Positions 3,386-37,832 of a DNA stretch of 64,000 bases are shown in pieces. The stretch's first letter is position 1; the number at the start of each line of letters is the position of its first letter. The position numbers and the translations under genes are program-made. Where the stretch lies: NCBI GenBank assembly GCA_010093485.1, contig MU001502.1, positions 1,446,057-1,510,056 on the forward strand, written 5' to 3'. The notes below the pieces were generated by a model. The model made no database searches, was not told where the DNA came from, and saw only the letters and a list, made by a program, of their open reading frames with translations. This DNA comes from Karstenula rhodostoma CBS 690.94. Lineage: Eukaryota > Ascomycota > Dothideomycetes > Pleosporales > Didymosphaeriaceae.

Positions 3386-3648
3386 TGTTCAAGTTCGATT
3401 TTCCTGGACATGTGTTGTTGCGAGCACGTCTTCGCCTGCCTTGCACGAAAGGGAAGTCGCGATGCGCATGAAGACGGAAGTCGCACCCAACAACATGACT
3501 TCCACGACCACCGTTCGCTTTCCTTCACCCAGACACCTCACTTCTCGCACATGCATCAACATGTGACCTCGCCATCAGCAAGTCTTTCGACTCTCTCACT
3601 ACCAGCTCGCATCGCTTGTCTTCATCACCCAGCTGGGGTAGAGTCGCG

Positions 3649-6081
3649 ATGTCCCGCAGGTGTTCCGTCATTCTCGAGTAAGTTATGACTCCAGCTGCCC
3701 ATATACTGTACTAACGATGCCTAGTTCTTCGGAAAATGAAGACGAGCTCGATATCGACTTCACTCCAGCTGTGCGGGAGTCGCACCCGCGAAAGCCATCT
3801 CCACTTGCAGCGTCTACCGGACCAGTACTGAAACCAGCGTCCACGTACAACCGATTTGCCCATGCCGGGGCAGCAAGCTTGGTCAACATCAAGGAGTACT
3901 CTGAGGAAGATCGTGTTTCTTGCTACACGTTCCTTGATGAAGCCAAACTTCTCAATGTTCAAGGAACACCGCGTGAGCTGTACACCCGCACACTATGGCA
4001 GAATCGACTAGAAGAGTTTATGGACACAACCGCAACCAAGACAAAGACCATGACTCCCGATGCAAAAGATCTGCAGGCGTTCCTTGTTTGCATGACTCTA
4101 CGAGCTCGGCCAACACCAGACCGAGTACCCTCGTACATGTGGTTAGAGCATGCTCGTCAGACCGTCATCAAAATCTGCAAGTTCAAGTTCAAGGATTTTG
4201 CACTGTCCGATCATGAGGAAGCTCACATGAACAACGTCATGGCCCAGCTACTCGTCGCAGGCAACGTGACGAAAGATCCCATCCGTGCGAAGCAGTGGAT
4301 CGGTTCAACTATCGTCCGACAGCTCGTCACAGGTCTAGTTATGCAAGCACATAAAGCTGGGACACTCAGTTGGGATGTCACAATCGCCAAATGGCTGTCG
4401 ATTGTCCTGGTGTCGGCGCTTGGATGCCGAGTCGGAGATGTGATGATGAGTCAGTTCGACGAGCACGAACTCCCGTTCCTCGCCTACCAGGATGTCAAGT
4501 TAACCCTCAAAGACGATGGATCTGACCTCAGTGATCTGGTTGCTGTCATCACCATTCGTAACGAAAAGGGTCACAAGTATGACCCGGACAACAATCGGAT
4601 CGTACTCCTAAAGTCGCTGACATCACCTCAACATTCCCTCATGGACCCGATCATGCTTTTACTGATTACTGCGCTCCGGTATGGGGAAGTGTTCGAGACT
4701 TCAATCGAACAACTGCTCGGTACTCTGCGCACCCATCGTCGGGTCATCTGGAAAAACCCACAAAATCCCGTTCTTTGCAAATTTGAAGTGTCAGGCAGAG
4801 CAGTGGAAATCGGCCAAGCAACCTGTACCCAACAACTCTCGCGAACACTGCAAGAAGCAGTTGTTACTTCTGGGATTAGCACGCCATTAGCGCCCCACGA
4901 TTTACGGCGTGGCGCCGCCCGCGACGTTGCCCATTCGTCCGGATATGCCCGTGGCCTTGCCAATTCTTCAGTTCAAGCAGCCATCGGTCACGCTCAGAAT
5001 GCGAACAATCTAGAGGTAACCTCTAAATATGTCGGCCAGGCTGCCATTGATCGCTACACTGCTCGTGTTGAAGAACCGTTCGTCGATCCAATATACAATG
5101 TCAGCGCAAACCGAGATGTTGCAAATCGTCAGCCCGACGGAAAAGCACGGCCAACCGAGGTTACTCAGTTTTGCGAAGCGAACGGGTTGTCGGTCGATGA
5201 TCCTCGTTCACGGAAGAAAGCGTCGGCGCTCATGGCCAAGCGTCGCCTAGAAGACTGGACCGATGCAACGAAAAAGCGCCCACATCTTGAACGTACCGCA
5301 GAGGGTGACCAAAATCTAGACGAATGCCTTGTGGATGCCGTTCAAGGTCAGAGCCTCGAGAGCCTGACCGCTGGACCTTCAGAGACAGGTGTTCTCCCAT
5401 TTAGCACCGATCACCTATCATTCGTGAAAGAGTACAGCCGTATCAACGTCAGCAAAAACTACACCTTGGGAACGACTAGGTCTACTGGCGATGAAGAGAG
5501 GAGCACGCTGAGCAAGAAGATCAATGGTAAGTAACACTGAGCGTGTTGATTCAGCATACACTGACTTCAAACTAGGCAACAGCCGTGACGAAGCTTCGCA
5601 ATTCGAATTTGCCTGCAAGAACGCGCACTTTGGCTGCCCACACATAACAACAATCTTCCCTGAGCTCCACCGGCATGAAACTCTCTGCCGTTACACGTCA
5701 ATCGATGCTGCTGCCGAGATAGCTGCCAAAGATGCGAAGAAAACGTTGCCATGCGACCAATGCGATAGAACTTTCGCAACAGACGAAGCCCTGTTCGATC
5801 ACAGACGCAAAGTGCACAACTGGAAATCGCGTTCCTGTGATAGTTCTGGCTGCGATAACTCGGTCGTTTACTCTACCGACTATGAGTGGAAGAAACACCT
5901 CGACACGCACTGCGCTTTTCCTCCCACGCATTGCCGATACCCGCAGTGCAGTTCGAAAAACGTCTTCCAGAAAGCCAATACCTATCGCCAGCATCTCCGA
6001 CGGTCACACGATGTGAAAGGTACAGCGGCTGATGTTTTTCTGCCAGATGAGTACAAGTCCATACGTGGCCAACGCGCTTGA
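3649..6081 (+). CDS. Tyrosine recombinase with C-terminal C2H2 zinc fingers (Crypton-like)
   Basis: Predicted exons are 3649-3677, 3725-5526 and 5576-6081, giving about 778 aa. The first intron is canonical (GTAAGT, TACTAAC, CTAG), which puts the in-frame ATG at 3717 inside it; hence the start at 3649. The second intron (GTAAGT, CTGAC, CTAG) joins the recombinase frame to the zinc-finger frame without a phase break. The catalytic pattern of tyrosine recombinases is visible: Arg about 245 in GCRVGDV, Lys about 291 in NEKGHK, HDLRR with His 401 and Arg 404, GH with His 432, and Tyr about 445 in SKYVG. Downstream come one classical C2H2 finger (CDQCDRTF to HRRKVH), a CX4C finger ending HLRRSH, and two looser Cys/His clusters. 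This is a mobile-element integrase or a domesticated derivative. DUF3435 'captain' proteins of Starships are an alternative relative. No terminal repeats or cargo were identified. Confidence 0.72.
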
Positions 6082-6789: not shown

Positions 6790-6803
6790 AAAAAAAGCAA
6801 AAA
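6790..6803 (-). terminator. RNA polymerase III terminator T-runs
   Basis: On the minus strand, T5 at 6803-6799 and T7 at 6796-6790 follow the 3' end of the tRNA-Phe gene by about 10 nt. No run of four or more T occurs on the sense strand within the tRNA gene and its inserts. Confidence 0.8.
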
Positions 6804-6812
6804 GATTGATGC

Positions 6813-7031
6813 TGTCGCTTCTGTGGATCGAACTAATGCTAGGTTAGCGAACCGCGTTATCGAACGATAGCTTTAATGTGGACTTACCACAGTCTGTTTT
6901 GGGTCAGTATTATCGACCTGAGGATCCATTGATTGTAATAACTTACACCTCCAGATATTCGAATTGAACCGAAGTTTGCCGCCGAGGCGGATTGCTTCAG
7001 TCTGGCGCTCTCCCAAGTGAGCTAAAGCGAC
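6813..7031 (-). tRNA. tRNA-Phe(GAA) with a canonical intron and two spliceosomal-type inserts
   Basis: Exon pieces on the minus strand are 7031-6995, 6956-6947, 6893-6888 and 6832-6813. Joined, they give a 73-nt tRNA-Phe: acceptor GTCGCTT pairs with AAGCGAC, D stem GCTC with GAGC, anticodon stem CCAGA with TCTGG around a CTGAAGA loop, variable loop AGGTA, T stem CTGTG with CACAG around TTCGATC, discriminator A. Segment 6994-6957 (38 nt) sits at the standard position after the base 3' of the anticodon and contains CTTC, which can pair with GAAG. Segment 6946-6894 (53 nt) starts GTAAGT, has CTGAC at 6907-6903 and ends CAG. Segment 6887-6833 (55 nt) starts GTAAGT, has CTAAC at 6847-6843 and ends TAG. 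Box A (TAGCTCACTTGG) is present. Box B (GTTCGATCC) is complete in the DNA because the insert's final G replaces the exon G. A Pol III terminator follows. Confidence 0.85.
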
Positions 7032-7714: not shown

Positions 7715-10393
7715 ATGGCGCCCGCAAAAAAGCGCGAAACGCGCGAAAATCAGTTCTACGATGTCGGCGTGCAGGGAAGGTGATAAACACGGCTATTTGC
7801 GCACGTCGCAGTAACTTACAGATACAGGAAAACGGGCATAACCCTCGAGGACAGAGGCGTACGCGACGAACATGGCCTTGAGCCCATATCCGGGATCTTC
7901 TCGTCGCCAGAGAAGTCCCCGCCAAAGCGTGCTTCGAATCAAACCGGTGGGACGATCACAGATTCAGAATCCATGGACCTCACAAGTATGTGTACTGGGG
8001 AATGCATGCGCAAATGCGATATGTTCCCTGTATGCAGGAAACGACTAACCGCAATTGCAGGTCCCATTGTCCAGCCAGCACCATCCGCTGCGAAATTGCT
8101 CCGCAGTGCCAGAACGCACCTGCCACCCCCAAAGGCGCGTTCGCCCATGAAGACTTCACTAGGATCTTCCCCACGTCGCCAGTCGTCCATGGGGCCCCGA
8201 GCGCAACCGGAGCCCGTATCGAGCCCCTCGCGCTCCTCCTCCCACCCGGTTATAAGCCGGCGCCTGGATTTTGAACAAGAGGAATCCAGTCTGCAGGAAA
8301 CACCAGCGTTGAGTGGCTCTGGACAAAGACGAGGAACCCGCCGAAGCATTTATAGCATCGAACCATCACCCAGCCGCATCACAAATAGCGCCATGGAGGA
8401 GACGATCCAGGAGGAGATTTCCGCTGCTGAAGAATCGGCGATTCTCAATGACATTGGGGAGGAAAGCGGACTTCAGGACATAGCGAACGACACGGTCCTG
8501 GATGCGGAGTCAGAGATCGTCGAGGAAGATGCCGAGGCTGACGTGGATATTACTGCGGACGCAGAAGTCGAGGTTTCCGTGGATGCGGAGGAGTCGGAAG
8601 GTGTTCTGGAACCCGTCAAGCAACCTGCTAAAAGAGGACGCAAGCGAAAAAACGATACCGTGGACCCCGCTGTAATCGAGGAAGAAGCCCCCGAGCCTCG
8701 AAAACGAGGACGAAAGCCTCTTGAGAAGAAAGACAAGAATGTGGCCGTCGCGCCTGCTGCACCATCGCGGCGTTCTAAGCGCGTCTCAGATATCACTGAA
8801 CAAGAGACAAGCACCCTGCAAGACGCCTCTGCCGAAGCTGCGGAGGTGGTCGACACTCCTCCTGTAGCCCCTAGACCACGTGGCCGACCCCCAAAAGCTG
8901 CTGCAGCCCCAGTAGAGATGCCTCCGCCAGCAAAGAAGCAAAAGCGTCAGGCAAAAGAGCCAGAGAAGGAGCATGTACAGCCCCTTTCCAAGAAACCGAA
9001 AGCCGCACCAGTGCCGAGGAAAAAGGCCGATTCCAAGGATGCAGAGCCGCCATCGGAACAAGAATTAGCAGAAAGCGGAAAACTCGTCGACGTATATGGC
9101 AAGCCTATCTCGAAGGCTGACCTGGATCAGATGTCCACCACAACGACAGGGACAAGATTCGGTCGAGGTCGTCATTTGTCTGTTTTCCGCGAACTGGAGC
9201 CCGACTCTGCCGCCACCGTGGGCCGCACTGGCAGACATCGCGTAAAGCCGATCAACTTTTGGGCCAATGAGGCTGTCTCCTATGACCCCACCGGGAACAT
9301 GCAAGCAGTTGTGAACAGGGTTTACCAAGAGCCCCCGAAGGTCAAAAGGAAGACAGCAAAAAAAGGTCAGAAGAGGTCACTTTCTGCGGTTGAAGAAGAC
9401 GAAGACGAGGACGAAGTAGGAATACAACCTTGGGAAGTCGAAGGCAAAGGCAAGTTCAAGGGCAGCTACAAGGGTTATGATGTGGCAAACAAGATCTCGA
9501 CAAACAATCTCATCGAAACTAGTAAGCCAACTCTCGATTCTCTCCGAGGTAGTCATGCTGACATGCGTAGCAATTGCCTGGTCCGACGAAGGCATCCAGC
9601 CAAAACCCCTGCCAGACGGGTCTTTCAAGTTCATTAAATTAGCTTCGGGACATGTTAATGACGACGACCAAAGCAAGACCTACTTGAGCTGGGGATTTCT
9701 CGAGCTTGAGGAAAATCAGATGAAACGCGCAAAAAACAGCTCAGCTATGCACATGGTCTTTCATGTCGCGAGCGGTGCTGTAGAGATTCGGGTTCACGAG
9801 AACATTCTCACTGTGCGACGCGGTAGTGTATTCCAAGTCCCTCGTGGTAAGTCCATCCTCCCTGCCACCTTCAGAACTCCGTCACGCAGAGCATCTACCC
9901 CAAAACCGCGATACACGACAGCTTTCCTTCCCTCTACACTCTCACTCTTTTGCACTCCACATCCTGTGCGACGGCGGTGAATTTATGCTTAAACCCGGTG
10001 TTCTGTCCAACAATGACTACGGGAGTTTGCATCACTTTGCTTCATCGCACAACGTCGCACGCCCGCTTGGGCAAGCGAGCGTCGTGTGGCTGGTGCATGA
10101 ACAGTGCGCTGCTGCGTTCCACACATGCTGTGTAACATGCCGCCCTGCTCGTTTGCCACCGTTTTGCATCGTTCGCGCAGGACGCACATACCAAGCCCCC
10201 ATCCTTGCAGGCTTGCTTTTTCCGACCTCGTATCACGTCCTCGCCTTTCTTACCTTTTCTGTACCCATGGCGTTTCCCGCTTACTAACGCATCTCTGGCA
10301 GGCAACATGTACAGCATCAGAAACGTCGGCACGAAAACGAGTCGCCTCTTCTACGCCCAAGGGTGCGAGATGCGGGTTCTTGCCGAGGACTGA
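7715..10393 (+). CDS. mif2: Inner kinetochore protein Mif2 / CENP-C
   Basis: CENP-C family protein that binds CENP-A nucleosomes at the centromere and recruits the Mis12 complex. Exons are 7715-7779, 7828-7985, 8061-9521, 9571-9846 and 10302-10393, giving about 683 aa with all phases consistent. The N terminus (MAPAKKRETRENQFYDVGVQ, then GRKTGITLEDRGVRDEHG and GIFSSPEKSPPKR) matches the fungal Mif2 N-terminal block. The middle is acidic and disordered with AT-hook-like KRGRKRK, KRGRKP and PRGRPPK motifs (the last near residue 345). The CENP-C motif lies at about 460-480 (GRHRVKPINFWANE). The C-terminal cupin dimerisation domain occupies about 562-683 and includes HVASGAVEIRV, FQVPRGNMYSI and RLFYAQGCEMR. 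The last intron is 455 nt, long for this genome, and ends with TACTAAC and GGCAG. Confidence 0.95.
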
Positions 10394-35447: not shown

Positions 35448-37832
35448 ATGGCGTCGAACGCACAAACAACGGGCGCAGACCCCAGAGCGGAGGAGCTGCG
35501 GAGAAGAAACGTAGCTGGTCAACCAGCTACCACACCGCAGGTGGCACAGGCACCATCGGCAGAGAAGTCAAAGGAGAAGGTAGGCGCTTGGAGGCTTCAG
35601 CTGCAACTATAATTTCATGGGATATCGCAATTGACCTACCTCCAGGCTTTCAGCGTCATTGGCTTCCTCGACGACTACGAGTTCATATGGGCCCCGCTGC
35701 TCTTCACGGCCCTCGCCTTCTTCACACGCATGTGGAAGATTGGCCTTTCGCCGATTGTCACTTGGGATGAAGCCCAGTACGAACCCTCCTCTCCGCACCG
35801 TTGCATCCATCGCTGACAGCCAACGCAGTTTCGGAAAGTTCGGTTCCCACTACCTCAAGCGCGAATTTTACTTCGATGTCCACCCTCCGCTAGGGAAAAT
35901 GCTCGTCGGTCTCTCTGGATACCTCGCAGGATACAACGGCTCGTTCGAGTTCAAGTCGGGAGAAAAGTACCCCCCGGAGCTTAACTACACCTTTATGCGC
36001 CTTTTCAATGCCGTGTTTGGCGCTGTCTGCGTCCCATTGGCATACTTCACCGCGAAGGAGCTCAACTTCCGGAGGCCAACCGTATGGCTCGTTACGCTCA
36101 TGGTCCTGTTCGAGAACTCGTACACCACCATCAGTCGTTTCATCCTGCTCGATTCTATGCTGCTCTGCTTCACCTTCACCACCGTGTTCTGCTGGTCCAA
36201 GTTCCACCGTTACCAACGCGACCCGTTCTCGCCAGAGTGGGGTCTGTGGTTGATGCTGCTTGGTGTGTCCATTGGCTGTGTTTGCAGTGTCAAGTGGGTC
36301 GGTTTCTTCGTCACTGCATTGGTTGGGCTGTACACCATTGAAGATCTGTGGAACAAGTTTGGCGACCTGAAGATGCCCAAGGTTGAGCTGGCCACGCATC
36401 TCGCTTTCCGCGTCTTTGGTCTCATTCTGATTCCCCTCGCTGTCTACATGTTCTCTTTCTACATGCACTTCATCATACTCGAGAACAGTGGCCCGGGAGA
36501 TGCCCAGATGAGCTCCCTCTTCCAGGCTAATCTGCGCGGTACTGAGGTCGGAAAGGACAGCCCTCTGGAGGTTGCTTACGGCTCGCGTGCTACCTTGAAG
36601 AACATGGGATACGGCGGAGGTCTGCTTCACTCTCACCACCAAACTTACCCCGAGGGCTCGAACCAACAGCAAATTACCTGCTACCACCACAAGGACTCCA
36701 ACAACGACTGGTTCTTCTACCCCAACCGTCACGAGGCTGGTTACTCGCCTGAGGAAGCGCTTCGCTACCCCGGAAACGGCGACGTCATTCGTCTAATCCA
36801 CGCTCAGACTGGCCGTAATCTGCACTCCCACAACATTGCTGCTCCCGTGACCAAGGCCGACTGGGAGGTTTCTTGCTACGGTAACACCACGGTTGGCGAC
36901 ACCAAAGACCACTGGAAGATTGAAGTTGTCCGTGACGCAGCCTCGCGGGACCACTCCAAGATTCGGACCCTAACGACCTCTTTCCGCTTGAAGCACATTG
37001 ACCTTAACTGCTACTTGCGCGCTGGCAACGTGAACCTGCCGCAGTGGGGTTTCAAGCAGATCGAAACCACCTGCGTTAAAGAGAACAAGCCCCGCGATGT
37101 CTACACCCACTGGAACGTGGAAAGCCACTGGAACGAGAAGCTGCCGAACGGCAACCCCGACTCCTACAAGTCTCCTTTCCTCCAAGATTTCATTCACCTC
37201 AACGTTGCCATGATGACGTCCAACAACGCACTGGTACCTGACCCGGACAAGCAGGATGATCTTGCCTCCAAGTTCTGGCAGTGGCCCTTCCTGCATGTCG
37301 GTCTTCGCATGTGCGGTTGGAACGACGACAGTAAGTATAGTTGTATCGTCTCATGAGTGTTAGCTAATCTGTTATAGTCGTCAAGTACTTCCTTCTTGGC
37401 AACCCCATCATCTACTGGGGCTCTACTGCCTCCCTCGGTGTCTTCGCCCTCCTGGTTGCCTTCTACCTCATCCGTTGGCAACGCGGATACGAAGACCTCA
37501 AACTTGCTGAAATCGACCAAATCCACTACTCCGGTCTGTACCCCGTCATCGGCTGGTTCCTGCACTACATCCCATTTGTCGCCATGGGCCGTGTCACTTA
37601 CGTCCATCACTACTACCCGGCTTTGTACTTTGCTATCTTGACTTCCGGCTTCTGCATTGATTTCGCGACGCGCAAGCTGAACAAGCAGGTCAGCTGGGCT
37701 TTGTATGGTACTCTGTACGTTGCCATCATTGGGCTCTTCTGGCTCTTCAGGGCTATCTCGTTTGGTATGGAGGGACCGAGCTCGCAGTGGAGTCACCTCA
37801 AGTGGTTCGAGAGCTGGAGGATCACGGATTAA
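35448..37832 (+). CDS. Protein O-mannosyltransferase, PMT2 subfamily
   Basis: ER membrane GT39 enzyme that transfers mannose from dolichol-phosphate-mannose to Ser/Thr of secretory proteins. Exons are 35448-35579, 35646-35776, 35829-37330 and 37378-37832, about 739 aa; introns are 66, 52 and 47 nt. The catalytic first loop has WDEAHFGKFGSHY with the Asp-Glu pair at about residues 85-86, then REFYFDVHPPLGKMLVGLSG. The central luminal MIR region contains LHSHHQTYPEGSNQQQITCY, then LIHAQTGRNLHSHNIAAPVT and HIDLNCYLRAGNVNLPQWGF. SGPGDAQMSSLFQANLRG is characteristic of the PMT2 group. C-terminal membrane helices include GWFLHYIPFVAMGRVTYVHH. PMT2-type enzymes usually act as heterodimers with PMT1-type partners. 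Confidence 0.95.

Follow-up and report, generated by a model that had tools for sequence, protein, structure and literature searches.

The question raised by this locus is whether a nuclear tRNA gene can be interrupted by introns of the kind that the spliceosome removes from mRNA and still serve as a working gene. By the accepted division, introns of nuclear tRNAs are left to the tRNA endonuclease and a ligase and those of mRNAs to the spliceosome, and tRNA genes whose introns bear full spliceosomal signals break that division. The first-pass annotation of the window (the whole 64,000-nt stretch of Karstenula rhodostoma DNA that was analysed) had proposed such a case, a tRNA-Phe gene with two spliceosomal-type inserts besides its ordinary intron, and had known of no nuclear tRNA precedent. 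Likewise, a search of openly licensed PubMed Central papers turned up no account of a nuclear tRNA gene with spliceosomal introns, and reports elsewhere are possible.

Structure of the window tRNA-Phe gene

The tRNA-Phe(GAA) gene occupies 6813..7031 on the minus strand, the strand of all its parts given below, and measures 219 nt unspliced and 73 nt without its three introns, as delimited by folding and ARAGORN. Exon 1 (6995..7031, 37 nt) comprises the 5' strand of the acceptor stem, the D arm and the anticodon arm through position 37, and is followed by a canonical anticodon-loop intron of 38 nt (37/38; 6957..6994). The end of the anticodon loop, the 3' strand of the anticodon stem and most of the variable loop form exon 2 (ATCTGGAGGT, 10 nt, 6947..6956), which borders on intron A, a spliceosomal-type intron of 53 nt at about position 47/48 (6894..6946) with the signals GTAAGT...CTGAC...CAG. 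Exon 3 is only 6 nt long (ACTGTG, 6888..6893), providing the final variable-loop base and the 5' strand of the T stem, and leads into intron B, a second spliceosomal-type intron of 55 nt at 53/54, the border of T stem and T loop (6833..6887), with the signals GTAAGT...CTAAC...TAG. Exon 4 (6813..6832, 20 nt) supplies the T loop, the 3' strands of the T and acceptor stems and the discriminator A. The presumed branch adenosines are 6904 in intron A and 6844 in intron B, the branch motifs ending 9 and 10 nt, respectively, before the 3' end. The coordinates proposed for both inserts and the gene are thus exact, and the splice signals and the third insert at the canonical anticodon-loop site were likewise correctly described.

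Removal of the introns gives a 73-mer that folds into a standard cloverleaf (-24.8 kcal/mol) with acceptor, D, anticodon and T stems of 7, 4, 5 and 5 bp and discriminator A, and ARAGORN calls it tRNA-Phe(gaa), in agreement with the claim that excision restores a tRNA-Phe. ARAGORN made no call anywhere in the window, nor did it recognise the unspliced gene or the gene minus insert A alone, and removal of insert B alone yielded a tRNA-Phe with a 72-nt intron, a misfit; the Rfam tRNA model had no match at the locus. Such genes are easily missed, since ARAGORN and the Rfam model are blank here and the tRNAscan-SE 2.0 paper describes its search for non-canonical introns for the archaeal model.

Box B (GTTCGATCC, 6825..6833) begins with the G that is also the final base of intron B and so is intact in the DNA, as had been pointed out. 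The reported Pol III-type terminator lies just 3' of the gene (6790..6803, T runs of 5 and 7), and TTTT is absent from within the gene (7031-6813). Two open reading frames lie nearby. One, at 3642-5534 and about 1.3 kb from the tRNA-Phe gene, has weak Phage_integrase and DUF3435 matches, both below the Pfam cut-off, and is possibly a Crypton- or Starship-like tyrosine recombinase; the other, at 7787-9637, adjoins the gene and has a Mif2/CENP-C N-terminal domain.

Four tRNA-Phe genes, all interrupted

The genome (44,326,383 bases in 29 contigs, an assembly that may be incomplete) was searched with the 30-nt 5' half of tRNA-Phe. Four matches were obtained at up to three mismatches, each with none, while the reversed control pattern gave 0; a gene differing at more than three of the 30 bases would escape this pattern. 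The four genes lie on four different contigs and all are interrupted, and no intact tRNA-Phe gene was found by this search. The first-pass annotation had suggested a search for other tRNA-Phe genes, holding that many intact ones, with the window copy silent, would make the latter a pseudogene: three more were found, all interrupted and with identical exons, and none was intact.

Other patterns were less specific. The short anticodon-arm word CCAGACTGAAG had 27 matches, the four Phe genes among them; because only 10 of these were fetched as loci and inspected, the longer pattern was used. Nine matches (four forward, five reverse) were obtained with a pattern for introns that end at the T loop, against eight with its reversed control; three are Phe genes, and the other six were looked at with ARAGORN only. 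A 16-mer spanning the junction of exon and intron A occurred in 13 stretches of viral contigs, and in no case did a tRNA-Phe 5' half lie upstream of it; a longer pattern had 0 matches in a collection of genome contigs.

All four genes possess an anticodon-loop intron, in each case with an anticodon-pairing stretch, and a GTAAGT...YAG insert at one common variable-loop site; the second insert, at 53/54, is present in three (on contigs C11, C17 and C18) and absent from the fourth (C6). The exons are identical across all four genes. With splice sites left out, identity between genes is 43-56% for first-site inserts and 49-70% for second-site inserts, compared with a shuffled-sequence baseline averaging 49% (95th percentile 57%). 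The second-site pair from C17 and C18 (70%) is clearly related. Identical exons combined with first-site introns no more alike than shuffled sequence imply that the mature sequence is selected or homogenised; it is conserved while the inserts drift.

Interrupted tRNA genes across the genome

Inserts of this type were found in 22 tRNA genes beyond that of the window, which, with Phe included, brings the total to 26 spliceosomal-type introns spread over 23 genes and 11 kinds of anticodon. All genes found are interrupted for Phe (4/4), His (3/3), Ala(CGC) (2/2), Leu(CAG) (2/2) and Leu(AAG) (4/4), and some of those found for initiator Met (iMet; 2/3), Pro(AGG) (2/3), Pro(TGG) (1/2), Thr(CGT) (1/2), Glu(TTC) (1/2) and Val(TAC) (1/2); these ratios concern the genes found and are no guaranteed totals, the tRNA survey being incomplete. 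As for tRNA-Phe, the searches made found no intact tRNA-His gene. ARAGORN misread the anticodon in some cases, and isoacceptor names, for instance that of Pro(TGG) on contig C3, were assigned by reading the anticodon.

The inserts are distributed over much of the tRNA: in the acceptor stem after base 5 (Thr), in the D arm (Glu, Leu, Pro, Val), near the junction of D and anticodon arms (Ala and one Leu), after A38 (iMet), in the variable loop (Phe, iMet) and at 53/54 (Phe, His). Paralogous tRNA-Leu genes (loci L066, L069 and L158-L161) are interrupted after bases 10, 18 and 25, and these differing sites suggest repeated independent gain.

The loci for Phe, His, iMet, Ala and Leu(AAG) came through similarity or the tRNA model, and the second Ala gene and the Pro genes through a box-B pattern with acceptor pairing. 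Some interrupted genes came from a motif-guided script or a by-eye search for GT-AG inserts, so that other kinds of insert may have been overlooked. Of 1177 candidates in the Rfam tRNA search of the genome, 62 were scored; the first box-B pattern had 331 matches and a narrower one 126, of which about 100 each were listed, further box-B searches closed part of this gap, and the loci fetched are a subset of the places listed. Within the fetched stretches ARAGORN reported 93 distinct loci, comprising seven misread interrupted genes, two odd long ones and 84 ordinary tRNA genes, the last to be set against the 23 interrupted ones.

Two other groups of tRNA-like sequences were encountered. Loci L098 (C9:1051400-1054600), L107 (C15:395800-396800), L129, L130 and L134 combine a box A, a box B and a T-run with acceptor pairing like that of a tRNA, and have a long insertion between the D and T arms; several are clustered, six that were measured span 149-241 nt overall, and one of three that were folded formed a cloverleaf in which the anticodon arm is giant. 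A repeat ending in GTTCGAATCCCACYCTGATCTTTACCTTTTT occurs in several places (L111, L112, L120, L128) and is perhaps a tRNA-related short element.

Intron boundaries and splice signals

The boundaries can be judged from intron-free paralogs where these exist. In 7/7 interrupted genes so compared, the junction fits a GT...AG insertion, the paralog matching over 5-45 nt on its 5' side and 17-35 nt on its 3' side, and the same holds for 3/3 second tRNA-Phe introns compared with the C6 copy. In all ten comparisons one or two equivalent registers are possible, one of them being GT...AG. The chance of such a fit is about 3e-14 for six independent sites and uniform bases, an optimistic figure because the Thr and Glu genes were first noticed through their GT-AG signals. 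The intron-free Val(TAC) gene was left out of this comparison as too divergent.

The 26 introns are 48-67 nt long and all start with GT and end with YAG. Their donors are GTAAGT (13), GTAGGT (3), GTGAGT, GTACGT, GTATGT and GTAAGC (2 each), GTAAGG (1) and GTTAGT (1), and a YTRAY motif ends 8-11 nt before the 3' end in 25/26, the exception being CTAAG in the Leu(CAG) gene on C17. On a combined splice-signal score, with the matrix built from 33 mRNA-type introns of this genome, the tRNA introns have a median of 21.7 compared with 21.5 for those same 33. Random sequence reaches 7.0 at its 99.9th percentile, a value that all 26 surpass; the lowest of them (13.7) lies just above the highest (13.6) of 1300 shuffles of the tRNA introns. 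The mRNA-type introns were chosen by open frames and a required branch motif, and the set contains errors, including one misbounded intron of a protein mannosyltransferase gene.

Introns of that gene, which lies in the window, were also bounded by homology. The best match to a mannosyltransferase of the window is a protein of Paraphaeosphaeria sporulosa (Pleosporales, Didymosphaeriaceae; 98% identity over 88% of the query). Two plus-strand introns, GTAAGT...GCTAAT...TAG (37331..37377, 47 nt) and GTACGA...GCTGAC...CAG (35777..35828, 52 nt), have junctions agreeing with the homologous protein P0001 with 0 mismatches, and a third agrees with one mismatch. These homology-supported introns show signals similar to those of the tRNA introns, which together with the scores bears out the stated likeness of the tRNA-Phe inserts to mRNA introns of the window.

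None of the 26 introns (0/26) is at the canonical position 37/38. The nearest is that of iMet on C5, after A38, for which a single placement exists; this is GT...AG and yields the sequence of the intron-free copy. Self-splicing group I or II introns were considered and set aside: no Rfam match at the gathering score was obtained in the window, which takes in introns A and B of the 26, and 48-67 nt is too short for a self-splicing catalytic core. Chance resemblance was likewise rejected, given the four exact tRNA-Phe 5' halves against 0 in the control, the paralog junctions and the signal scores.

Promoters and proposed processing

All interrupted genes (23/23) have a box B in their DNA, many of them having been found by box-B patterns. 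The final G of the 53/54 introns doubles as the first base of box B. Box A matches the consensus used in 16/23 genes, the four Phe genes having an uninterrupted variant; it is uninterrupted in 20/23 and broken by the intron in the Glu(TTC) gene on C5, the Leu(CAG) gene on C17 and the Val(TAC) gene on C16. TTTT occurs in none of the 26 tRNA-gene introns, which is consistent with Pol III transcription and not evidence for it; as a Pol III signature, T4 avoidance proved not distinctive, TTTT being also absent from 30/33 mRNA-type introns.

Taken together, these features argue, with a probability of roughly nine in ten, for nuclear tRNA genes that work and whose inserts are ordinary spliceosomal introns of the U2 type, their Pol III pre-tRNAs being spliced, on this reading, by the spliceosome; the first-pass proposal of such introns in a functional nuclear tRNA gene is to this extent supported at the level of sequence. 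Pol III would transcribe the whole interrupted gene (121-219 nt), and the nuclear spliceosome would recognise the GTRNGT-like donor, branch site and YAG acceptor and remove the insert as in pre-mRNA. It would have to act early, because the T arm cannot form before the insert is removed; the tRNA body would afterwards fold, have its ends trimmed and be exported. In tRNA-Phe and similar cases the anticodon-loop intron would then be taken out by the tRNA endonuclease and ligase in the usual way. Some features tell against this reading: Pol III transcripts lack a cap, the intron breaks box A in the three genes named above, and the Thr(CGT) gene on C17, with no more than five exon bases and the leader ahead of the donor site, would yield a hard substrate for the spliceosome.

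The cell, this suggests, needs the mRNA-splicing machine for making some of its tRNAs. Every tRNA-Phe gene (four) and every tRNA-His gene (three) found being interrupted, a direct dependence of translation on the spliceosome is to be expected. We consider it very probable that these introns form a further class of tRNA intron whose removal falls to the spliceosome, that tRNA-Phe and tRNA-His, and perhaps tRNA-Leu(AAG), have no source that bypasses it, that a single tRNA-Phe molecule needs two unrelated splicing machines, and that mRNA splicing and translation are thereby directly coupled. Three matters become testable: the splicing of a Pol III transcript that has no cap and is 121-219 nt long, spliceosome activity as a limit on tRNA supply, and intron gain in genes without a reading frame.

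Alternative explanations

The inserts might instead be non-canonical tRNA introns like those of archaea or Cyanidioschyzon, for which the tRNA endonuclease cuts at bulge-helix-bulge motifs. Eukaryotic precedents exist, one with an intron at 53/54, the place of intron B, and the endonuclease is to be expected in a fungus in which ordinary anticodon-loop introns are abundant. However, a 4-bp central helix between intron and 3' exon was possible at 0/26 junctions in the equivalent registers tried, and a GT donor, a branch motif and YAG are not predicted by such a mechanism. Since the canonical introns of the four Phe genes also lack the helix (one of four pairs each), its absence counts only against the Cyanidioschyzon and archaeal type, an explanation that we regard as highly improbable.

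A second possibility is that the interrupted genes are silent relics and that intact copies serve the cell, for which the intron-free paralogs of iMet, Pro(AGG), Pro(TGG), Thr(CGT) and Glu(TTC) and the divergent intron-free Val(TAC) gene could be adduced. Against it, neither an intact tRNA-Phe nor an intact tRNA-His gene was found in the genome searches made, and the Phe exons on four contigs are identical beside first-site introns no closer than shuffled sequence; it is extremely improbable. That the window tRNA-Phe gene itself is a pseudogene was rejected on its standard cloverleaf, the four identical exon sets and the lack of an intact gene among the search results. A different question, that of origin, is whether the introns are recent introner-like mobile elements that landed in tRNA genes by chance, which is compatible with spliceosomal splicing and in keeping with reports of introner-like elements from Dothideomycetes. 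The first-pass annotation had raised this idea, which the search did not bear out: a 990-nt query assembled from 19 of the 26 introns had 18 matches, 18/18 of which fall in interrupted tRNA genes, and with very common words skipped it detected no copy elsewhere. The search scores best candidates only, so that it speaks less fully against an abundant or decayed family; as an origin of these introns we hold introner-like insertion to be very improbable.

Comparison with known systems

U6 is a product of Pol III, and rRNA genes are transcribed by Pol I. The spliceosomal introns of ascomycete rDNA (cited in PMC11889510) resemble those of the interrupted tRNA genes in being of the mRNA type and within a structural RNA gene, whereas the host genes are transcribed by Pol I there and presumably by Pol III here. 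According to a 2017 paper, U3 and U6 were until then the only small structured RNAs for which frequent interruption by an intron was known; the abstract of that paper calls U3 a Pol III gene (PMC5832005). Like the fungal U6 snRNA and U3 snoRNA genes, the present genes carry mRNA-type introns within small structured RNAs; unlike them, the hosts are tRNAs, several of which also require the tRNA endonuclease.

Among tRNA introns, the canonical eukaryotic one at 37/38 is described as having no clear local splice motif and as being removed by endonuclease and ligase (PMC4090602), and it co-occurs with the spliceosomal-type inserts in the same tRNA-Phe genes. The tRNA-Ile(UAU) of Cyanidioschyzon merolae has introns at 12/13, 37/38 and 53/54 (PMC9602550, PMC4090602), and those in its D and T arms are thought to be removed ahead of the anticodon intron (PMC9602550). 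This resembles the order proposed here, while the machine differs, the C. merolae introns being linked to bulge-helix-bulge motifs and the tRNA endonuclease (PMC4090602). Insertions in tRNAs of the Guillardia nucleomorph are given as 3-24 nt (PMC4090602). In contrast to the introns of C. merolae and the nucleomorph, those described here are 48-67 nt long and bear donor, branch and acceptor signals.
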